64,000 nt of DNA, from positions 186,001-250,000 of the forward strand of contig JAIEMP010000004.1 of the NCBI GenBank assembly GCA_019752045.1. The letters are read 5' to 3'. The translations under genes and the position numbers were made by a program. Below, in pieces: positions 42,785 to 53,121 of the stretch. This DNA comes from Chitinophagaceae bacterium (GTDB lineage Bacteria; Bacteroidota; Bacteroidia; Chitinophagales; Chitinophagaceae). The first letter of the stretch is position 1. Every line of letters begins with the position of its first letter. The notes beneath the pieces were generated by a model. It saw only the letters and a program-made list of their open reading frames with translations, was not told the origin of the DNA and searched no databases.

Positions 42785-44200
42785 TTAAATGAACAGTTTT
42801 ACCAGGAAGTATGCAATGCTGGCTATTACAGCACTTACAGGAATAGTTAATATCCATGCCCATAAGAGGTTTACTGTAACACCCCATCTTACAGCGCTTA
42901 AACGTTTGGTGGCACCTACACCAATGATGGCACCTGTAATGGTATGTGTTGTACTCACAGGAATACCCATTTGCTCTGTCATAAATAAAGTAACTGCACC
43001 GGCTGTTTCTGCAGCCACGCCTTCCAGCGGAGTTACTTTGGTAATTTTTGTACCCATGGTTTTAATGATTTTCCATCCACCACTCATGGTACCAAGACCA
43101 ATGGCTGTGTAACATGCCAATGGCACCCATGTTAATTCTTTAAGTGCGGCACCCACATCCGGATATTTAGCTGTGCCATAATAAGCAACGAAAGCTGCAC
43201 CAATAATACCCATTACTTTTTGTGCATCATTACCACCATGACCTACACTGAATGCAGCAGAAGAAAGCAACTGCAGTTTCTTAAACATTTTTGCAATACG
43301 GTATGCATTGGGTGTTTTAAATTTCTCTGCATATAAGTAAGCAACAATAAAAATAAATGCAATACCGGCAATAATATTAAACTGCAGACTGTTGTCTGAT
43401 TTTTCCAATGCTTTAGAAAGTTTTGCTACGTCTACTGATGGATCTACTTCTGCTTTAATTTTTTCTGCAATTACTTTTCCGCCTGTAAGATTAAATTCTT
43501 TCAGGTAAGGTTTTGCAGCAGCAACAGTTGCACTGGCCGCTTCTAGCTTAGCCTTTATTTCCGGATCTTTCGCTGCTTCTTTCTTTAACTTATCAACCTT
43601 ATAATACTTCCCCAGATTGTCTGATAATTTCGTTTGCTCAAACGTGTTAAACAGAAACCAGGTTCCTGTGAGGGCAAGGAATATTATCGCCAGTTTAATC
43701 CAGGTATTACGCATGATTGTAATAATGGTAATGAAAATTGAAATGACCATACCAATCAACGGAGCCAGAAAAATGAAGAGTAAAGTTTTGATGATGATAG
43801 ACAACTCAACAATATTTCCAAACGCCTGTGCTCCCTTTGTATAAAAAGCATGTGTAACGGCGGCACCTACAAAACCACCCATTAATGTATGTGATGAAGA
43901 GGAAGGGATGCCATACCACCAGGTTAACAGGTTCCAGAAAATAGCGGCAATTAAACCGGAGAGAATAACAGGGAGTGTAATATATTCTGTGTGCACCCAT
44001 TTGCCGATTGTATTGGCAACAGCATGATCCTGAAAAATAAAAAAGGCAACAAAATTAAAAAAGGCTGCCCACAATACGGCCTGAAAGGGAGTAAGCACTT
44101 TTGTTGAAACAACCGTTGCGATGGAGTTGGCCGCATCATGAAACCCGTTGATATAATCAAACACAAGCGCCAGTGCTACAATGACAATTAAAAGCGTCAT
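42785..44200 (-). CDS. Low-affinity inorganic phosphate transporter, PiT family
   Basis: A 471-residue inner-membrane phosphate/cation symporter. The duplicated PiT signature is seen: DYINGFHDAANSIATVVST at about 15-33 and GGNDAQKVMGIIGAAF in the second half; GIPSSSSHTLMGGFVG and GIPVSTTHTITGAIIG are the two matching HT/SSS motifs. Between the halves lies a hydrophilic insert of roughly 70-80 residues (~195-270, Lys/Ala/Glu-rich) bounded by membrane helices. The preceding PhoU-like gene is 59 bases upstream. Confidence 0.93.
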   Translation of the reverse strand: MTLLIVIVALALVFDYINGFHDAANSIATVVSTKVLTPFQAVLWAAFFNFVAFFIFQDHAVANTIGKWVHTEYITLPVILSGLIAAIFWNLLTWWYGIPSSSSHTLMGGFVGAAVTHAFYTKGAQAFGNIVELSIIIKTLLFIFLAPLIGMVISIFITIITIMRNTWIKLAIIFLALTGTWFLFNTFEQTKLSDNLGKYYKVDKLKKEAAKDPEIKAKLEAASATVAAAKPYLKEFNLTGGKVIAEKIKAEVDPSVDVAKLSKALEKSDNSLQFNIIAGIAFIFIVAYLYAEKFKTPNAYRIAKMFKKLQLLSSAAFSVGHGGNDAQKVMGIIGAAFVAYYGTAKYPDVGAALKELTWVPLACYTAIGLGTMSGGWKIIKTMGTKITKVTPLEGVAAETAGAVTLFMTEQMGIPVSTTHTITGAIIGVGATKRLSAVRWGVTVNLLWAWILTIPVSAVIASIAYFLVKLFI

Positions 44201-44259: not shown

Positions 44260-44910
44260 TTAAGCGTATTTTACAATAATTGATTCAATAACGTTTGCTG
44301 CATCTTCACACTTATCTGTAGCAATTTCCATTACCTGATAAATTTCTCTTTTTTTGATCACTTCTTTTGCATCGTTTTCTGTTGCAAATAAACGTTCAAT
44401 GCTGAAATCAAAAATATCGTCGGCCTGATTTTCAATACTGTTTACACGAACCAATGCATCGGTAATCTGACGCATGTTTTTCATGTCTTTTAATTCCATC
44501 ACTGCGATCTTGATATTTTCGCAGGCCTGCACAATCAGATCGGCCATTTTACCAAAACTTTCATGTACGGGATCTACACGGTAAAAGTTGATTTTTTTAG
44601 CTGATGCAAAAATATAATCTGCAACATCGTCCATGGCCGATGCCAGGTAGTGGATATCTTCTCTGTCGAACGGTGTAATAAAGTTGCGGCTGAGTTCTGT
44701 AAATATTTTATGTGTAAGATCATCGTTCTTATGTTCCAGATCTTCTATCTGGCGCAGGATCACTTCTCTGTGTTCAAAAGAAGGTTCAGTTACCATCTTT
44801 TTTAACAGATGTGCCATTTCAAGGGAGGTTACAGATACCTGTTCAAACAGCTGATAAAAAACCCTGTCTTTAGGTAAAAAGATCTTCATGAAGGAATTGA
44901 TTGCTGACAT
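44260..44910 (-). CDS. DUF47 family PhoU-like phosphate regulator
   Basis: A 216-residue helical-bundle protein of DUF47 (PhoU-like), which normally accompanies PiT transporters and is thought to modulate phosphate uptake. Typical sequence: FYQLFEQVSVTSLEMAHLL near the start, then IEDLEHKNDDLTHKIFTELSRNFITPFDREDIHYLASAMDDVADYIF at about 51-97, with the acidic DDVADYI metal-binding type motif. It is placed between the porin and the PiT gene, all co-directional with short gaps (19 and 59 bases). Confidence 0.93.
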   Translation of the reverse strand: MSAINSFMKIFLPKDRVFYQLFEQVSVTSLEMAHLLKKMVTEPSFEHREVILRQIEDLEHKNDDLTHKIFTELSRNFITPFDREDIHYLASAMDDVADYIFASAKKINFYRVDPVHESFGKMADLIVQACENIKIAVMELKDMKNMRQITDALVRVNSIENQADDIFDFSIERLFATENDAKEVIKKREIYQVMEIATDKCEDAANVIESIIVKYA

Positions 44911-44929: not shown

Positions 44930-46150
44930 TTAGAAATTTAATTGTGCCTGTATGCGTAACAGATTACCTTTTTGGAAATTCTGCCGCAGCTTTGAATCCT
45001 CAAACCGTCTTTCAGAAATAGTATAAGCAGTTGTAAGTTCGAAATATTTATTTACCTGCCACTCCATACCCATTTCCACTTCTTTTACATTATAAGCTCT
45101 TGCATCCAGTTCGTGTTTTTTTCCGCCATTGTACTGCTGTACTCTTGTATAAGGAAAGAAAAACATGTCTTTATGTTTCTTGCTTTTAAAACGGGCATAG
45201 AGTGTAGCATAACCTCCTTTTAAGTTTCTTACTTCTATTGAATCTTTCAAGGGGTTATACTGTGGCCCTCTTCCCCAATTGTATTCTGTAAGTAAACCTA
45301 TTGGGTTTGGATACAGATTCAAAGTAACAGCTGCCCGTTCATCTTTAAATGCAAAGCCGTTGGCTGCCTTAACGCCGGCCGATCTTAATTCGGCTGGCAA
45401 TACATATTCGCCGGTATAAGCCTGTACACCCGCTTCAAGCACCTGATTCCTGATTTTAATTGGATAACTGACTCTTGAAACGATGTGCACTTTTTTATTT
45501 TGTTCGGGTCTGTTGGCGGTTTGTCCGTTATAAACACCAAATGCAATTACGCCATAATCACCTGATCCTTTTCTGTTATCATTTATGAATTCCGGATATT
45601 TTGTTCTGATATTTTCCGGAGCCCAGTATAAAAAAGCACCAAGATCCCGCTCATTCGATAAAGCACTGTTCAATGCGTCGTTACGGTCAAGCGGCAATCT
45701 GTTCTGGCTCGACTGCATGTTTTCAAAACCAAACGGCACCTTGCTCTGGCCAATCCGGATTCTGTATTCATTTTTTTTGTCAAAGCCTACATCTACATAA
45801 GCATCACGCAACTGAAATATATTTTGCGTTGTGCCTATTGCACTTCCAAAATCGGGCTGAATGTAGAAGTATACATTTTTGGATAGATTTCCGCTGATGA
45901 TGATCCGTCCTCTTCTGATAGCAAATCCTCCGCCTGCTCCCCAGGACCGGTCGCATTGTTCACATTTCAGATTTTCGTTCGTTTCTAACAGCCGGTTATA
46001 CCGTACCTGCATATATCCACGAATCGAAAATGCATCGTACCAGTTTTTTTTAACTGCGGGTTTAATTGAGTCTGTTACATTTTTTTGGGCCATCAGATTA
46101 TTACATAAGAATAACGTGATGAAAACCATCGTTCCTGATCTTGTTTTCAA
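44930..46150 (-). CDS. Phosphate-selective porin (OprO/OprP type)
   Basis: A 406-residue outer-membrane porin of the OprO/P family, first gene of a porin-PhoU-like-PiT operon, which fits passage of phosphate across the outer membrane. A signal peptide precedes MAQKNVT. The barrel carries repeated family segments such as FAIRRGRIIISGNLSKNVYFY (~75-95), FQLRDAYVDVGFDKKNEYRIRIGQSKVPFGFENMQSS, and NELRDLGAFLYW. The start is uncertain: a TTG at 46150 gives the better signal peptide (Lys/Arg at residues 2 and 4), and an ATG lies at 46129. The leader contains a terminator-type hairpin inside a 17-bp inverted repeat, and phosphate-box-like repeats lie further upstream. Confidence 0.88.
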   Translation of the reverse strand: MKTRSGTMVFITLFLCNNLMAQKNVTDSIKPAVKKNWYDAFSIRGYMQVRYNRLLETNENLKCEQCDRSWGAGGGFAIRRGRIIISGNLSKNVYFYIQPDFGSAIGTTQNIFQLRDAYVDVGFDKKNEYRIRIGQSKVPFGFENMQSSQNRLPLDRNDALNSALSNERDLGAFLYWAPENIRTKYPEFINDNRKGSGDYGVIAFGVYNGQTANRPEQNKKVHIVSRVSYPIKIRNQVLEAGVQAYTGEYVLPAELRSAGVKAANGFAFKDERAAVTLNLYPNPIGLLTEYNWGRGPQYNPLKDSIEVRNLKGGYATLYARFKSKKHKDMFFFPYTRVQQYNGGKKHELDARAYNVKEVEMGMEWQVNKYFELTTAYTISERRFEDSKLRQNFQKGNLLRIQAQLNF

Positions 46151-46153
46151 TAG

Positions 46154-46286
46154 TATTATCTTTTAATTGCAGCGCAAAGGTGCTGAAAACAACTGTGAGC
46201 ATGGAAGAAGGGGGTATTACCAAATTGTTAACTCTCAGCAAAAAGCCCCGCCAGAAATGGCAGGGCGGTGCAATTAAAAGATAATA
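46154..46286. repeat. 133-bp element with perfect 17-bp inverted ends in the porin leader
   Basis: Arms 46154-46170 and 46270-46286 are exact reverse complements over 17 bases (both AT-rich, containing TTTTAATTGC). They enclose 99 bases that include the terminator hairpin at 46245-46266. One end abuts the porin start codon by 4 bases. It could be a MITE-like insertion or a structured mRNA leader. No target duplication is evident. Confidence 0.75.
46240..46266 (-). terminator. Terminator-type hairpin (possible attenuator) in the porin leader
   Basis: On the minus strand GCCCTGCC pairs with GGCGGGGC (one G-U) over a 6-base loop, followed by TTTTT. It lies 90 bases before the porin start, in the direction of porin transcription, so it would reduce read-through into the operon unless disrupted. 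Confidence 0.7.
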
Positions 46287-46319
46287 TGAGGCCTTATCTT
46301 GAGGCTGTATTTAAACCGG

Positions 46320-46347
46320 ATGTTAAACGATGTAATCATCTGTTTAC
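46320..46347 (-). promoter_or_regulatory. Phosphate-box-like direct repeats upstream of the porin operon
   Basis: On the minus strand three 7-mers lie 11 and 10 bases apart: GTAAACA (46347-46341), ATTACAT (46336-46330), and TTAACAT (46326-46320). The pattern (7-mer, 4-base gap) is that of known PhoB/PhoP boxes. They lie about 170 bases upstream of the porin start. Confidence 0.45.
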
Positions 46348-46575
46348 ATCCGGAACCGCAAATATTTTTTTTCTGTATTACGTAATCGTTACCGATGGGT
46401 TAATAATACATTAACTTTTTTTAACGCATGGGAGTTTGTGAAGCTGCGGCAGAAAGTAGTATTAAAAAGAGTAAACAATTGCTTCAAACTGTTTACAATA
46501 ATTCATCTGTACTGCTGAAGTTGTATTCAAATGTGATTGCAGTTGCGCAAAACTGCAAACCTTTTAAAGGCTTTG

Positions 46576-46637
46576 TTAACATTGCGTTCATGTGCAGATA
46601 ATATTTCCTTAACATAGCCGTCACTTTGAGGTAACAT
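46576..46637 (+). promoter_or_regulatory. Array of six 7-mers at an 11-bp period upstream of the TonB receptor
   Basis: 7-mers begin at 46576, 46587, 46598, 46609, 46620, and 46631: TTAACAT, TTCATGT, ATAATAT, TTAACAT, GTCACTT, GTAACAT. Two are identical and 33 bases apart. The last two flank where a -33 element should be, and a -7-like TTTCTTTG lies at 46646-46653. This is the arrangement of an activated phosphate promoter. Confidence 0.5.
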
Positions 46638-46670
46638 ACCGGAGGTTTCTTTGCAGCACAAATAGAAGAT

Positions 46671-49454
46671 ATGCAAAGGAATGCTTACAGGAAACTAATT
46701 GCTTTATTACCCATCTTATTATTTACACTCACATCAGCAGCACAATCACTTAAATTAAACGGCCGTGTGCTTAACCAGAAAAACGAACCTATAGCCGGGG
46801 CTTCTGTTTCCGTTTCGGAAAACAACAGAGTGGTTGCAGCTGATGTGGAAGGTCGATTCAGCATTGTGCTGGATGCAAATAAAAAATATACCCTCACTGT
46901 TACTGCTGTTGGTTATCAAACAAAAGCGGTAGACGAAGTAGAGGTAAAAAACGCCGATGACAATGCATTGATCATTATCATGAATGTTGCTGCAAAAGAA
47001 GGGACTGAAATCATCATCCGCAGTACTGCCAGAAAAGAAAACACATCAGGTTTATTGAGTTTTCAACGTAACAATACATCTTTATCGAGTGGTTTATCTG
47101 CCGACTTTATCCGTCGTACACCGGATAAAAACACCGGTGAAGTGTTGAAGCGTGTAAGTGGAGCATCAATTCAGGATAATAAGTTTGTGATCATTCGTGG
47201 TTTGAGTGATCGTTATAACCAGGCATTGATCAATGGTGCACAATTGCCATCATCAGAGCCGGATAAAAAAGCCTTTTCGTTTGATGTGATTCCATCTCAA
47301 TTAATTGATAACATCATCATCAATAAAACTGCAACTCCTGATCTTACAGGTGAGTTTGCAGGTGGGTTGGTACAGATTCAGACAAAAGATGTTCCTACAA
47401 AAGACATACTGAATATTGGTGTTGGATTTGGGTTTAACACACAATCAACATTCAAAGATTTTACAACCAATCTTCGTGAAACAAGTGATTGGTTTGGTTT
47501 TGATGATGGCCGCCGTAACATACCTGATGGATTTCCAACACGCAATCAATACGCAAAGACGAATGAAGCACAACGTATTGCTGAATCAAAAAAATTCCGT
47601 TCCGATGTATTCAATGAACGCACAATAACAGCAGCGCCTACACAGAGTTATAATATTACTTATGGAGTTGGTCGTAAATTAAAAGGAGGAAGCTCTATTG
47701 GATTTATTGGCGGATTGATCTACAGGAACTCTCAATCATTGTATAATGTTGACAGAAGCCTTGCCGATTTCAACGGTTCTGTTGAACGCAGATTTACAGA
47801 TCGTCAAAATAAATTCTCCAGCACAGTAGGTGCCGTAGCTAATGTTTCATTTACAGGAAAGAAAACAAAGATCTCTTTCAAGAATTTATATAACCAGTTA
47901 TTCGACGACAACTATTATATAAGAACAGGACAGAATGTTTTAGACGGACAGGACATTAATTTCCGCAGCAGCGTTTTAAACCAACGTTCACTTTACTCTT
48001 CACAGCTCGAAGCAGAACAACAGTTAAGTAAAAGCGGGATTAAGCTGAAGTTGAATGGTAACTTTTCTTACAACTTAAAATCACAACCTGATTTACGTAC
48101 GGCTTCATATACACGTAGCACAGGAAGCAATGATCAGTTTGCATTAACTGAAGACGAAACAGGACGTTTCTTCAGCAGCCTGAAAGATTTCAGTTATGGT
48201 GGTGGCGGTTCACTTAGTATTCCATTTAAACTGGCAGGTGAGAAACAAACATTCAAAGCAGGTGGAAGCACATTGATCCGTATCAGGGATTTTCAATCAA
48301 GAAATTTCCGTTATCGCCTGGATGATAACGCAAACTCACAATTACTGTTTTTGCCCTACAATGAAATTTTTGATCAGCAATATATTGCACCCGGCAAATT
48401 TTATTATGCAGATGAAACACAAAATGAAGACAAATATTTTGGTGTAAGTATTGTGAATGCAGGTTATGCTATGTTTGATAATAAGTTTTCAGAAAAGGTT
48501 CGTCTTGTATGGGGCTTACGTGCAGAAAATTTTCAGCAGTTCTTAACAACCATCCGTTCAGATCTGCAACGTGTAATTGTAAACACCAATAAATGGGACT
48601 TCCTTCCATCACTCAACTTTACTTACAATATCAACACAAAACACCAGGTGCGTTTGGCAGGTTACAGGACAGTTGCCCGTCCTGAGTTCAGAGAAATTGC
48701 TCCGTTCTCTTTTTATGATTTTGAACAGAACTATTCAGTAAGTGGAGATACAACGTTAAGACGTAGTGATATTTGGAATGCAGATGTTCGCTACGAGTGG
48801 TATCCAAAAGCAGGTGAAGCCATCAGCATTGCGGGGTTCTACAAACAGTTTAAAGATCCTATTGAATTGCGTGCATTAGCTGCAGGCAGTGTAAGAAGAT
48901 ACCAGTTCCAGAATGCAGGTATTGCAAACACAATTGGATTTGAAATTGAGATCAGAAAAAGTCTTGCATTTATCAGCCAATCAATGTCAGAATTCAACAT
49001 CTTCTCAAATATTACAGTGCTTTCTTCAAAAGTAAATTTAACCGGAACAAGTGCAGGCGGTGTTGTTGAATCTTTCAATCGCCCATTACAGGGGCAATCG
49101 CCATACCTGGTTAACGTAGGCTTACAGTATAACCAGAAAGACAATAAGTTCAATGCTTCTATTCTTTACAACCGGATTGGACAACGTTTGGCATTGGTGG
49201 GCGGTAAAGACCAGGGACTGTATGATATTTATGAAAGACCAAGAGATTTAGTTGATCTGCAATTTGGCATGAAAGTATTAAAGAACCGTGGTGAACTTCG
49301 TGTAACAGCATCTGATCTGTTGAATCAGAAATTCTTTTTTTACGAAAATGTAGACAACAAAAAAGCATACAACAAATCAACAGATCGTTTATGGAATTCT
49401 TATACACCCGGTACAACAGTATCGGTTACATTCTCATATGATCTGATCAAATAA
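46671..49454 (+). CDS. TonB-dependent receptor with carboxypeptidase-like N-terminal domain
   Basis: A 927-residue outer-membrane receptor. Signal peptide residues 1-25; a CarboxypepD_reg-like beta domain at about 27-112 (LKLNGRVLNQKNEPIAGASVSV, LTVTAVGYQTKAV); a plug at about 140-250 (RRTPDKNTGEVLKRVSGASI, FVIIRGLSDRYNQALINGA); then a large barrel ending VSVTFSYDLIK. The plug pattern is that of the receptors without a SusD partner: no SusD-type gene follows, but a beta-helix lipoprotein does (31 bases later). The phosphate-module context suggests a phosphorus-containing ligand (inference). Confidence 0.88.
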   Translation: MQRNAYRKLIALLPILLFTLTSAAQSLKLNGRVLNQKNEPIAGASVSVSENNRVVAADVEGRFSIVLDANKKYTLTVTAVGYQTKAVDEVEVKNADDNALIIIMNVAAKEGTEIIIRSTARKENTSGLLSFQRNNTSLSSGLSADFIRRTPDKNTGEVLKRVSGASIQDNKFVIIRGLSDRYNQALINGAQLPSSEPDKKAFSFDVIPSQLIDNIIINKTATPDLTGEFAGGLVQIQTKDVPTKDILNIGVGFGFNTQSTFKDFTTNLRETSDWFGFDDGRRNIPDGFPTRNQYAKTNEAQRIAESKKFRSDVFNERTITAAPTQSYNITYGVGRKLKGGSSIGFIGGLIYRNSQSLYNVDRSLADFNGSVERRFTDRQNKFSSTVGAVANVSFTGKKTKISFKNLYNQLFDDNYYIRTGQNVLDGQDINFRSSVLNQRSLYSSQLEAEQQLSKSGIKLKLNGNFSYNLKSQPDLRTASYTRSTGSNDQFALTEDETGRFFSSLKDFSYGGGGSLSIPFKLAGEKQTFKAGGSTLIRIRDFQSRNFRYRLDDNANSQLLFLPYNEIFDQQYIAPGKFYYADETQNEDKYFGVSIVNAGYAMFDNKFSEKVRLVWGLRAENFQQFLTTIRSDLQRVIVNTNKWDFLPSLNFTYNINTKHQVRLAGYRTVARPEFREIAPFSFYDFEQNYSVSGDTTLRRSDIWNADVRYEWYPKAGEAISIAGFYKQFKDPIELRALAAGSVRRYQFQNAGIANTIGFEIEIRKSLAFISQSMSEFNIFSNITVLSSKVNLTGTSAGGVVESFNRPLQGQSPYLVNVGLQYNQKDNKFNASILYNRIGQRLALVGGKDQGLYDIYERPRDLVDLQFGMKVLKNRGELRVTASDLLNQKFFFYENVDNKKAYNKSTDRLWNSYTPGTTVSVTFSYDLIK

Positions 49455-49485: not shown

Positions 49486-50874
49486 ATGAAACAGTTTTTC
49501 ATCATTGCAATAGCCGCTATCAGTTTTGCCGGTTGTGTAAAAGTAAATTTTAATGAAGCAACTACAGATCCGGGTGTCAGGGATACAACCGTTATCCCAA
49601 CAACATTAAGCGGTCGTATTGATAAAAGTCTTACACTGCCAAAAGGAAAGTACACGCTTGTTGGATTTGTGTATGTAGGTAAAGGTGCGGTACTTGAGTT
49701 TTCTCCAGGTTCAATTATTGTTGCAGATGCATCTGTAAAAACAGCTTTAATTGTTGAACAGGGTGCCAAATTAATTGCAGATGGTACTGCCGCCAACCCG
49801 ATTGTATTTACAAGTAGTAAAGCAGCTGGTCAGCGTCGTGAATTTGACTGGGGTGGTATTTCAATTTGTGGTTATGCGCCAACCAACCGTCCGTTGGTTC
49901 CTGCTCCTATTACAGAAGGCGGCAGCAACCGTCCTTATGGCGGAACTGATGCAGGTGATAATAGTGGTATCCTTCGTTATGTACGTATTGAGTTTGCAGG
50001 GATCACTGCAGAAAATAACAGTGAGCTCAATGGTTTAACCTTGTATGCGGTAGGTGCAGGTACCATTATTGAAAATGTTATGACCTCCTATTGCGGCGAT
50101 GATGGTTTTGAATTTTTTGGTGGCACTGTAAATTGTAAGAACCTGGTTTCGTTTGCAAGTGGTGATGATGATTTTGATTTTGATTTTGGTTATAATGGAC
50201 AGATTCAATATGCTGTTTCATTGCGTGATAAATATTTTGATGATGATGATGCTAACCAGATCGAGTGTGATAACGATGCTACAGGTACGGGTGCTCTTCC
50301 TTATACTCGCCCTGTATTAAGTAATTTCACATTAATTGGTGTGTATGATACAACAGGATTACCTTCCAATGCACGTCACCGTTTTGGTAACAGATGGCGT
50401 CGTAATACCCGTTTTGAATTCCGGAATTCAATTATTTTAGGAAGCTGGGGTAATGGCGTGGCGCTTGATGGTGATGGAACAATCAATGCATTTCTTAATG
50501 GAGAAAGTATTTTCAGAAACAATGCAGTTTTTTCATACAACAAATTGTTAAACGGATCTTTTACAGATGCAAGCGCAACATTCGCAACAAGTAACCAGGT
50601 TTTATTACCTAATGCTACGTTGTTGGCTACACTTACAAATGGAACTAATCTTAATACGGTGTTGGCAAATCAGAACGCAGCTATGTTAACCTCTCCATTT
50701 GCTTTAAATGCCCCTAACTTTTTACCGGCTGTTTCTTCACCGGTTCTTACCGGAGCAAACTTTGCTGGTATGAGTGCCTTCTTTACAAGTGCTCCAACAT
50801 TCCGTGGTGCATTTGGTACTACAAACTGGATGCAGGGCTGGACAAGCTTTACACCACAAACAAACGTATACTAA
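49486..50874 (+). CDS. Lipoprotein with beta-helix-like repeats, partner of the TonB receptor
   Basis: A 462-residue outer-membrane lipoprotein (lipobox FAGC, Cys17). After about residue 60 the sequence shows the short, regular strand-turn pattern of a right-handed parallel beta-helix (GKYTLVGFVYVGKGAVLEFSPG, ALIVEQGAKLIADGTAANPI, LRYVRIEFAG), with an Asp-rich loop set GDDGFEFFGG and GDDDFDFDFG at about 200-230 and DDDDANQ near 255, which could bind cations. It probably forms a surface-exposed partner of the preceding receptor, capturing or processing a ligand. No enzyme motif can be assigned. A terminator follows. Confidence 0.75.
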   Translation: MKQFFIIAIAAISFAGCVKVNFNEATTDPGVRDTTVIPTTLSGRIDKSLTLPKGKYTLVGFVYVGKGAVLEFSPGSIIVADASVKTALIVEQGAKLIADGTAANPIVFTSSKAAGQRREFDWGGISICGYAPTNRPLVPAPITEGGSNRPYGGTDAGDNSGILRYVRIEFAGITAENNSELNGLTLYAVGAGTIIENVMTSYCGDDGFEFFGGTVNCKNLVSFASGDDDFDFDFGYNGQIQYAVSLRDKYFDDDDANQIECDNDATGTGALPYTRPVLSNFTLIGVYDTTGLPSNARHRFGNRWRRNTRFEFRNSIILGSWGNGVALDGDGTINAFLNGESIFRNNAVFSYNKLLNGSFTDASATFATSNQVLLPNATLLATLTNGTNLNTVLANQNAAMLTSPFALNAPNFLPAVSSPVLTGANFAGMSAFFTSAPTFRGAFGTTNWMQGWTSFTPQTNVY

Positions 50875-50961: not shown

Positions 50962-51175
50962 ATTTATAACAAAAAAATTTTCCTTGTTGCTAATAGCCTC
51001 TTCTTTAAATAACAATTAATCAATGCTGCGGTAATGGTTTATTAAAACTGTGCTTTCATATTTGCACTCTGCTGACGGATATCCCATCTGTCAACAATTT
51101 GCAATCAAGGGTTCATTTTCTCATGACTTGACTGGGAACACGCCACCTGTTTTTACTCGTGGCTTTTTTTATTGA

Positions 51176-52237
51176 TTAGTTTTCCGGTTTATCTGTTCTT
51201 GCCTGGAGAGTAAAACCAAAGGTGGTTCCAATGTCTAACCTGCTGCGTACGTGCATCATTTGATCATGCGCTTCAATAATATGTTTGCAGATAGATAAAC
51301 CCAATCCGCTGCCGCCTTCTTTTCTGCTGCGGGCCAGGTCCGTCCGGTAAAAGCGTTCAAATATCCGGGTGAGATGTTCTTCTGCAATACCATACCCGTC
51401 ATCGCTCAATTCAATCAACACCGTTGCATCGTGTGTTTTGTAAACACTGAAAACAATATTGCCGTTTTGTTTTCCATATTTTATGGCGTTGTCAATTAAA
51501 TTAATAAACACCATTCGTATTTTCTCTTTATCCGCATAAACAGTAATGGGCAGTTCACATCCTTTCTTAATAGTTGTTTTAATATTTTTTTCTGCTGCTT
51601 TAATGGAAAGGCTGTCGAACACTTCATTCACCAGATCCTGGATCACAAAATTTTCTTTATACAATAATTGTTGCCCGATTTCTAATTTAGAAATTTCATC
51701 CAGATCATCAACCAGGTTTACCAATCGGTCAATATTTTTTGAAGTATTGAGCAGAAATTTTTTTGCCACCTCTTCTTTATGCATGGCACCACTCAACAAG
51801 GTATCAACATAACCCTGCACGGCAAAAATGGGTGTCTTTAATTCATGGCTCAGGTTTTGCAAAAACTCTTTACGGTATTGTTCGTTTTGTTTCAGGATTT
51901 CAATTTCCTGTTTCTTTTGCTCTGCCCATTCTTCTACTTCGGCACTTACTTCCTGTAAACTTTTTTCGGGCAGTAATGATTTATTAAAAAATTCTTCCCG
52001 CTTGGTAGCTTTTGTTTGGGAAATGAATTTATAAATGAGTTTGATGTGCCTGTAAATAAACCGTTCGGTAAAAAAACGGATGAGCAGATAGCTGATAATG
52101 AACAACACCACAAAGCTGATGATGGCAATCCACCAGCTTTTAATAAAAAAATAGTTAGCCAGCCCAACCAGTAATGAAATGGTAAATGCATTGATGGCTG
52201 CAACCTGCACTGGGTTTAGTTGACGGGAATTAAGCAT
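51176..52237 (-). CDS. Sensor histidine kinase, PhoR-like
   Basis: A 353-residue membrane kinase paired with the response regulator 41 bases upstream. From ATG 52237 there are two helices at about 14-32 and 35-55 with almost no periplasmic loop, then a helical linker, a HisKA domain with FLQNLSHELKTPIFAVQGYV (His131), and HATPase motifs INLIDNAIKYG (N box), DDGYGIAEEH (G1) and GSGLGLSICKHI (G2). No PAS domain is seen. The minimal sensor part resembles PhoR kinases that respond through other membrane proteins (such as a transporter plus PhoU). The frame also has a TTG at 52261. Confidence 0.9.
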   Translation of the reverse strand: MLNSRQLNPVQVAAINAFTISLLVGLANYFFIKSWWIAIISFVVLFIISYLLIRFFTERFIYRHIKLIYKFISQTKATKREEFFNKSLLPEKSLQEVSAEVEEWAEQKKQEIEILKQNEQYRKEFLQNLSHELKTPIFAVQGYVDTLLSGAMHKEEVAKKFLLNTSKNIDRLVNLVDDLDEISKLEIGQQLLYKENFVIQDLVNEVFDSLSIKAAEKNIKTTIKKGCELPITVYADKEKIRMVFINLIDNAIKYGKQNGNIVFSVYKTHDATVLIELSDDGYGIAEEHLTRIFERFYRTDLARSRKEGGSGLGLSICKHIIEAHDQMMHVRSRLDIGTTFGFTLQARTDKPEN

Positions 52238-52278
52238 GCTTGTTTGCGAAATTTTTTGCAAACGAAGGTAGAGAGGAA

Positions 52279-52965
52279 TTATGCAGCAGACAGTTCAAAC
52301 TTATACCCAACTCCTTTTACAGTAGTAATACAGTCGATATCCAGTTTCTGCCGGATCTTTCGGATGTGTACATCAATGGTACGATCGCCCACAATTACAT
52401 CGGCACCCCATACCTGATTTAATATTTCGTGCCTTAAAAAAACACGGCCTGGTTTGGATGCCAGAAGCGCAAGCAATTCAAATTCCTTTTTGGCGAGTAT
52501 AATGTCCTGTCCTTTAAAACGAACAATGAACTGTTCTTTATCAATTTGCAGATCACCTAACTTAATAATGGTTTCATCGCCACGGAAAGTGCGGCGAAAT
52601 AATGCATTTACACGGCTGATGAGAACTTTAGGGCTGATAGGTTTATTTACATAATCATCGGCTCCCATTTCCAAACCTTTTACATGACTGCTTTCATCGC
52701 TCAATGCAGTAAGGATAATGATAAGTGTTTGTTCAAACTCCGGTTGCGAACGCAGAATCTGGCAAACTTCCATTCCTGTTTTGCGGGGCATCATTACGTC
52801 TAAGATGATCAGGTCGGGTTGTTGCTGTCTGGCAACAATCAACGCCTCATCACCGTCTTTTGCTTTGAGGACTGTAAATCCTTCAGCAGTTAGATTGTAT
52901 TCAAGAATCTCAAGAATATCCGGCTCATCGTCGGCTATCAGAATTTTTTTTCCTTTGGGTTCCAT
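52279..52965 (-). CDS. Response regulator, OmpR/PhoB family
   Basis: A 228-residue DNA-binding response regulator. The receiver domain spans residues 1-125, with the acidic pair ADDEPD (12-14), phosphorylation site DLIILDVMMP (Asp56), Thr near LTALSD, and the conserved Lys in VNKPISP. A C-terminal winged-helix domain follows (~135-228, ELLALLASKPGRVFLRHEIL, then VDVHIRKIRQKLD). It is immediately upstream of the histidine kinase. PhoB-like by sequence style and location beside phosphate uptake genes; its likely targets are the 10-11 bp repeat arrays near 46.3 and 46.6 kb (inference). Confidence 0.92.
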   Translation of the reverse strand: MEPKGKKILIADDEPDILEILEYNLTAEGFTVLKAKDGDEALIVARQQQPDLIILDVMMPRKTGMEVCQILRSQPEFEQTLIIILTALSDESSHVKGLEMGADDYVNKPISPKVLISRVNALFRRTFRGDETIIKLGDLQIDKEQFIVRFKGQDIILAKKEFELLALLASKPGRVFLRHEILNQVWGADVIVGDRTIDVHIRKIRQKLDIDCITTVKGVGYKFELSAA

Positions 52966-53121
52966 GACTGTGTTGCAAATTTAGATGCCTGATTCCATGC
53001 GGAGCCAATCGTAATATTATAAAATTGTTAACGAGTTTTTGCATTTTGGGCCCGTTTTTGCCTGCAACCATGCAAAGCTCAAAGTATTCTTATTGGAAAA
53101 TTGAAGTTAATTTTGCTACCG

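Follow-up and report, generated by a model that had tools for sequence, protein, structure and literature searches.

Genes and Regulator at the Locus

The window, that is, the whole stretch of 64,000 nucleotides of Chitinophagaceae DNA analysed here and numbered from its first letter, carries two divergent gene sets. The minus strand encodes a porin of the phosphate-selective O/P family (44930..46150, PF07396), a PhoU_div (DUF47) protein (44260..44910, PF01865) and a PiT phosphate transporter (42785..44200, PF01384), and the plus strand encodes a TonB-dependent receptor (46671..49454) and, downstream of it, a lipoprotein (49486..50874). The lipoprotein fell into no Pfam or NCBIfam family, and its designation as a beta-helix protein comes from the earlier note on this DNA. 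A PhoR-like histidine kinase (51176..52261) and a PhoB-like response regulator (52279..52965) are encoded on the minus strand. The top curated models for the regulator were those of PhoB, with 230.6 bits for TIGR02154 (under the cut-off of 296.2) and 211.2 bits for the Bacteroidetes PhoB model NF053854 (under the curated cut-off of 270), and its nearest paralogue in the same genome is 37% identical. The single PBP_like_2 protein of the genome scored 63.7 bits, above the cut-off; its match to a PstS-family NCBIfam model was merely weak (34.7 bits, cut-off 206.6), so that the usual PstS was not found in this genome.

The Receptor-Side Array and Its Recurrence in Relatives

Upstream of the TonB receptor, six heptamers (boxes 1-6) follow one another on the plus strand in 11-bp steps between 46576 and 46637, with TTAACAT at 46576, TTCATGT at 46587, ATAATAT at 46598, TTAACAT at 46609, GTCACTT at 46620 and GTAACAT at 46631. 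All six start positions and the exact 11-bp period given in the earlier note were confirmed. The six boxes are identical to TTAACAT at 33 of 42 places, and the array shares with PHO boxes the presence of at least two direct 7-mer repeats in 11-bp units. Its six-box score was the best in the window (1 of 127,878 positions on both strands) and was reached at 0 of 3,836,340 positions of first-order random sequence, by which a chance origin was ruled out. The receptor promoter has a -7 element, TTTCTTTGC (46646..46654, plus strand), 8 nt past the last box, and transcription is predicted to start at about 46658. TAnnTTTG is the known -7 box of Bacteroidota, located at -12 to -5 (PMC9723704).

We found matches to the receptor in 100 of 147 family genomes. 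Orthologous arrays recur in 30 receptor upstream regions, where, in the alignment given by a 57-column matrix, 8 nt separate their end from a TAnnTTTG-like element. For training of the matrix, 28 of these 30 regions were used, with this species and its genus mate excluded. A fixed position relative to the core promoter, as in PHO boxes, is thus seen here as well, with the 8-nt spacing built into the matrix by its 28 training loci. The fourth box counted from the promoter has a consensus of its own, TTAACAATTC. The plus-strand array of the window scored 43.9, far above all else in the window; the next scores were those of 51009-51065 on the plus strand (17.6), 46358-46414 on the minus strand (15.3) and 46576-46632 (also 15.3), the last of which overlaps the main array. 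In random sequence, 15.3 was attained once per 4.0 million positions. Against the same null, 36 of the 41 scored loci of receptor homologues outside the family reached 10 bits, one of them (L107) in a shifted frame only. These 41 loci consist of 23 taken from the best matches (19 of which reached 10 bits) and 18 picked by hand (17 of which did), out of 190 genomes with a match. Note that five of the best matches were dropped, L129 for being too short and 4 others for belonging to the family. In addition, a Pedobacter homologue of the lipoprotein, 43% identical to it, has an array of its own.

Pattern Searches in Whole Genomes

A fixed pattern of three boxes and the promoter element, written after 30 upstream regions had been viewed, was searched in whole genomes with the reversed pattern as a control. 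Among 195 family genomes, there were 53 exact matches versus 1 for the control, and 47 genomes were positive. The genes behind the 53 matches were read directly in 44 cases and assigned from coordinates in 9. Receptor, lipoprotein, PhoB, PstS or phosphoesterase genes follow 26 of the 53. Specifically, these are 18 receptor orthologues, of which 6 (G015, G021, G039, G066, G071 and G080) belong to sequences viewed ahead of drawing up the pattern, 2 lipoproteins, 1 PhoB (72% identity), 2 PstS (one scored, with 357.6 bits for TIGR00975) and 3 metallophosphoesterases (one scored). Of the others, 2 are weak phytase-like matches (one of which fits SdiA-regulated better), 8 are weaker TonB-type receptors and 5 are related CarboxypepD_reg outer-membrane proteins. 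A further 8 fall into a single unnamed family with members of about 400-450 aa, 2 are choice-of-anchor L proteins, 1 is unidentified and 1 match is without an ORF. The members of the unnamed family (L276, L277, L292, L293 and L297-L300) are 41-80% identical to one another; the three tested against Pfam had no family there, and two had none in NCBIfam.

In ten named genomes of our own choice, 14 matches with at most 1 mismatch were obtained versus 0 for the control, and 8 of the 10 genomes were positive. These matches precede the receptor (L263, L266 and L273), the lipoprotein (L272), PhoU_div-PiT (L268), a weaker TonB receptor adjoining phoB-phoR (L264) and three ECF sigma factors (L267, L271 and L274), and four are without an ORF, two of these being one repeated sequence. 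The ECF sigma arrays are from Pedobacter sp. BAL39 and Sphingobacterium corticibacter, and one of the ECF frames starts at the -7 element. The sole match of Flavobacterium sp. H122 sits between phoB and a TonB receptor, and that of Pedobacter cryophilus precedes PhoU_div-PiT. In Chitinophagaceae bacterium LGM1 (L262), the sole array match precedes what is, by appearance only, a phasin-like protein. The array thus stands before other phosphate genes in genomes of the group, as PHO boxes do.

The enrichment before other phosphate genes that the earlier note had called for is therefore seen in the family and in the named genomes, and it is not seen in the raw count of the genome itself, which contains no exact match and, with at most 3 mismatches, 22 matches versus 22 for the control. 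Its three matches with 2 mismatches are those on both sides of the intergenic region and one on contig 6. However, when the 22 matches were rescored by the matrix, five reached 15 bits, and all five precede regulon-like genes, namely the receptor (43.9), a choice-of-anchor I protein on contig 9 (28.5), a CarboxypepD_reg outer-membrane protein on contig 7 (24.7), the porin side (15.3) and a metallophosphoesterase on contig 6 (15.1), while a random null predicts about two positions at 15 bits for a genome this large. The contig 6 metallophosphoesterase is 40-44% identical to the metallophosphoesterases behind the family matches. The three matches of this genome on contigs 6, 7 and 9 strengthen the case for the operators.

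It is very improbable that the arrays are bound by another OmpR-family regulator instead of the adjacent PhoB-like protein. More regulators of this kind are present in the genome and the adjacent one scores below the curated PhoB cut-offs, as described above; on the other hand, even its closest paralogue is no more than 37% identical, matches to the pattern precede phoB and pstS, and in Flavobacterium sp. H122 the match sits between phoB and the receptor. We are accordingly nearly certain, as far as comparison of genomes can tell, that the arrays represent PhoB-type operators of Bacteroidota with a set layout beside the promoter. The proposal of such a box before the receptor and lipoprotein genes is strongly supported by this comparative evidence together with the published induction of their counterparts in F. 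johnsoniae (PMC8115612).

A Predicted Porin-Side Promoter, P1

On the porin side, the earlier note had described GTAAACA, ATTACAT and TTAACAT on the minus strand as a second array within an 8-bp palindrome. The words are present within 46320-46352, TTAACAT-like and 11 and 10 bp apart as described, but the palindrome around them is imperfect, with 17-nt arms that are 82% complementary (46316-46353), and a better array is located at 46358-46414 on the minus strand. This array, hereafter P1, is a predicted PhoB operator-promoter with four boxes at 11 bp and the element AATATTTGC, and it has the matrix score of 15.3 given above. The palindrome words lie downstream of P1 and its -7 element, and close relatives keep the hairpin-forming stretch and not the words. 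The chance that these words are the PhoB operator of the porin operon is hence very slim, and 46358-46414 is in all likelihood the operator. Since it is directly downstream of the P1 -7 element, the palindrome would be transcribed, forming a hairpin at the 5' end of the transcript.

An upstream array of at least 10 bits was found in 24 of 80 porin relatives (the best 80 of 532), indicating that control of the porin varies. An inverted repeat, GTAAACAATT / AACTGTTTAC at 46471-46496, lies midway between the receptor and porin promoters.

A Candidate Small RNA Upstream of the Porin

Reading from P1 to the porin, the minus strand contains the 5' hairpin, a segment A (TATTATCTTTTAATTGCA, 46269..46286), a GC-rich hairpin with a T run, two boxes, the -7 element of a second promoter (P2) and a segment A'. 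The GC-rich hairpin, a 9-bp covarying helix followed by a T run, is the terminator (46240..46266) of a candidate small RNA, sRNA1, with predicted ends at 46354 and 46240 (46240..46354, about 115 nt), which would be driven by PhoB and antisense to the leader of the porin mRNA. The two conserved boxes of P2 (TTAACAATTTG GTAATA, 46215..46231) are at the position of boxes 3-4, and its -7 element is CACCTTTGC (46174..46182). Because the TAnnTTTG box sits at -12 to -5 (PMC9723704), the P2 mRNA would start at A', at about 46170. A' (TGCAATTAAAAGATAATA, 46154..46171) makes up nearly all of the predicted 5' leader and ends 3 nt upstream of the porin start codon. The boxes of P2 and of the phoB promoter are both in the register of boxes 3-4 (+48 or +49). 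The phoB promoter (52975..53031, minus strand) has two conserved boxes (TTAACAATTTT ATAATAT) and TAAATTTGC as its -7 element; two boxes, not four, are nearly invariant in five same-genus loci, a layout as in P2, and the four-box matrix gave it -3.9. Having kept its two boxes, P2 may be acted on by PhoB too.

The layout of A, hairpin, two boxes, P2 and A' was found, always in one orientation, at 12 distinct loci, namely the window, L171, L172, L173, L174, L175, L176, L179, L255, L256, L257 and L258, where duplicate leaders (L091/L172/L254, L092/L175/L252 and L176/L251) were counted once. The P1 array scored 15.3-29.5 at 11 of the 12 loci (27.9-29.5 for the same-genus copies) and 6.6 at L258. 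The P1 -7 element is without an intact TTTG in L173, L174, L175 and L179, and these four loci weaken the case for the small RNA. In L177, P2 and A' occur in the absence of P1 and A, so that the antisense portion may have been added. When family genomes were searched with a model of the element, 10 of 394 matched, eight of which were accepted, the weak matches G654 and G583 being excluded from the members, and 4 of 10 same-genus genomes carry the element. The reading as a repeat element with copies elsewhere in the genome was rejected, since the search returned one match, the sequence itself. No Rfam family exceeded its gathering threshold. Separately, L259 (G654) shows at about 1500-1650 an sRNA1-like layout with different letters, in which a terminator hairpin, TTTAACAATTTG, a -7-like element and a perfect inverted repeat (TTCATTAATTAGC/GCTAATTAATGAA) come after genes that are trk-like potassium genes by appearance; no ORF of at least 150 aa follows at once.

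All nine pairs of the terminator helix are formed in all eight sequences compared (the first eight of the loci listed above, from the window to L179), and 4 of the nine pairs have changed on both sides. In the A/A' helix, 91.4% of cells are paired in the 8 sequences; 10 of its 16 pairs are invariant, forming a core, one pair has changed on both sides, and mispairing occurs in 4 of the 8 sequences. A' of L171 has one inserted base. Taken together, 94.5% of the helix cells are paired, and none of 500 shuffles and no slid control attained the total covariation. The fold of the porin leader has a z of -8.1. Complementarity to the target mRNA is therefore conserved in A/A', as is expected of a trans-acting antisense RNA. 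The energy of the sRNA1 duplex was -21.2 kcal/mol with the porin mRNA, -22.7 with the start of the TonB receptor and -21.0 with PiT, values by which targets are not discriminated. Other copies of A' were also considered as further targets and rejected: among the 20 viewed of 22 sites with at most 2 mismatches, the porin copy alone is directly before a start codon and after a -7 element.

Two other readings of A and A' were weighed. In the first, the leader of the porin acts in cis as an attenuator or decoy: P1 transcripts mostly continue into the operon, translation or termination is set in cis by the A/A' stem and the hairpin, and no free RNA works in trans. A and A' would indeed share one P1 read-through transcript and one extended fold, and L172, L175 and L258 have a poor U run. 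However, no antitermination switch is visible, as A and the terminator stem are not in competition, at least 4 T lie within a few bases past the hairpin in 9 of the 12 loci, P2 is situated past the terminator and is predicted to start at A', and L177 retains P2 and A' without A. We thus regard the cis attenuator as rather unlikely, albeit worth keeping in mind. In the second reading, A and A' serve as the sites at which recombination inverts the promoter P2 between them, as in Bacteroides capsule loci (PMC3547664). An 18-bp perfect inverted repeat does bracket a promoter here, but the orientation is the same at all 12 distinct loci, the perfect repeat is just 13 bp in L175 and L176 even though recombination should keep the arms alike, and A adjoins a covarying hairpin; an invertible promoter has hardly any probability in our view. 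Returning to the antisense reading, we consider it likely from the conserved structure that sRNA1 exists as a discrete RNA, and the chances that it represses the porin mRNA appear evenly balanced.

These results also bear on the earlier proposal that PhoB drives the porin-PhoU-PiT operon. A predicted PhoB operator does exist on the porin side, but it is doubtful that PhoB simply drives the operon, because transcription from the stronger operator would meet a terminator ahead of the porin gene and would yield RNA antisense to that gene's leader.

A Second Candidate Small RNA

The 51009..51065 array on the plus strand (score 17.6) is the third predicted PhoB operator-promoter of the window. About 100 nt and a terminator come after it, ahead of the end of phoR. 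We term the product candidate sRNA2 (51069..51170, plus strand, about 100 nt, predicted ends), which has a conserved core, UUUCUCAUG, and a terminator at 51142-51170. In all four same-genus genomes examined, the array is kept (10.7 to 23.5) with the core CTCATGACTTGACTGGGAAC. The word TTTCTCATG occurs at 28 distinct sites across all fetched loci; an array above 5 bits is present within 200 nt upstream at 12 of its sites, versus 0 of 12 sites of the reversed word. Eleven of these 12 array-bearing sites lie past the lipoprotein gene and belong to ten genomes (that of the window and nine others, with two sites in one of the ten), and the twelfth, L106, resembles a gene start. The region downstream of the lipoprotein was also scanned at 27 family loci. 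Arrays of more than 5 bits turned up at 10 of them, of which 5 carry the word, L329 and L339 have near versions, L332 and L346 have none, and L342 leads into a gene.

It was also considered whether sRNA2 pairs with ATGAGAAA, the start of the gene that diverges from phoB; this was rejected, as four relatives have this start and the window does not. On contig 9 of the same genome (L080:1489-1640), the start of the choice-of-anchor I gene, CAATGAGAAAAT, is complementary to UUUUCUCAU of the sRNA2 core.

A Model for the Control Region

Given the comparative support on both strands, we propose that 46150-46670 is a two-sided PhoB control region. On the plus strand, phosphorylated PhoB would bind the six tandem 11-bp repeats as head-to-tail dimers. 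With 8 nt between the last box and the -7 element, PhoB would occupy the place of a -33 element and recruit sigma, so that the TonB receptor and the lipoprotein would be transcribed in phosphate starvation. On the minus strand, PhoB would bind the four boxes at 46358-46414 and P1 would fire. As its structure and covariation suggest, the P1 RNA would begin with the hairpin and stop at the terminator at 46240 after about 115 nt. Segment A may then pair with A' of the porin-PhoU-PiT mRNA made from P2 and block its translation, a step to which the conserved complementarity points, and read-through of the terminator would place the same block in cis. During starvation, the receptor system would thus be on and the low-affinity PiT system damped. 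Such a direction of sRNA1 action, repression in low phosphate, would parallel orfA-pit of S. meliloti (PMC3131613). The model as a whole, with the block of the porin leader by sRNA1 included, seems to us quite probable on the basis of the sequence comparisons.

Viewed more broadly, it is an even question whether the PhoB locus encodes a post-transcriptional arm of its own. In this arrangement, PhoB would switch on scavenging by the receptor and lipoprotein together with two small RNAs, one of which would be an antisense RNA encoded on the same strand just upstream of its target, with its seed over the 5' end of the porin-PhoU-PiT mRNA, shutting it off in low phosphate, and the other of which would be the conserved sRNA2.

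Bacteroidota are widespread phosphate scavengers, and the motif and its promoter geometry would make Pho regulons readable from their genomes. Among the proteins brought in this way would be those following 23 of the 53 exact matches, which look like membrane or secreted proteins. In the open-licence literature, outside of which most subscription papers lie, we found no paper defining a Bacteroidota PhoB box and no PhoB-linked small RNA for this phylum. The small RNAs, if real, would extend the phosphate response to the RNA level in a phylum in which Bacteroides is described as having no obvious Hfq or ProQ (PMC7366714).

Comparison with Known Systems

The closest published data are those on F. 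johnsoniae, where the Fjoh_0541-0549 genes, likened here by gene set, include an OprP porin, PhoR, PhoB, a TonB receptor and a lipoprotein FII, as at our locus (PMC8115612). Under phosphate depletion, the fold changes (log2 by the text) were 8.02 for the receptor Fjoh_0545, 9.91 for the lipoprotein Fjoh_0546 and 3.06 for PhoB (Fjoh_0544), and PlcP (PF12850), two ECF sigma factors and a PF13620 receptor were also up, whereas the OprP porin transcript did not change significantly (-1.3, FDR 0.25) (PMC8115612). The induced genes are of the kinds found behind the arrays here, and the array of Flavobacterium sp. H122 has a position corresponding to Fjoh_0544 and Fjoh_0545, which are neighbours by number (PMC8115612). 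Because arrays precede ECF sigma genes and two such genes of F. johnsoniae are induced in low phosphate, PhoB may also act through sigma factors. The terms pho box, binding site and promoter have 0 occurrences in the main text of that report (PMC8115612).

In B. fragilis, PhoB binds a 512-bp pst fragment in a gel shift, and only trace expression of pstC was seen in a phoB deletion (PMC3547664). This is binding by a Bacteroidota PhoB as proposed here, but the pst account gives it without a mapped box (PMC3547664). The orfA-pit operon of S. meliloti is repressed on phosphate starvation; unlike here, its PHO box is located just 5' of the translation start, and the passages on this operon mention no RNA (PMC3131613).

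The PHO box of E. coli consists of CTGTCAT direct repeats in two 11-nt units (PMC4415409). The arrays described here have in common with it the tandem 7+4 repeats and the location before pstS, phoB and transport genes. They differ from it in the core, which is (T/G)TAACAT, in the number of boxes, which is four to six, in the special form of the fourth box and the 8-nt spacing to the Bacteroidota TAnnTTTG element, and in that receptor-lipoprotein genes are a main target. The PhoP boxes of B. subtilis are TTAACA-like. Compared with them, the arrays have a similar core word and repeat step, in another phylum and with another sigma factor and promoter element.
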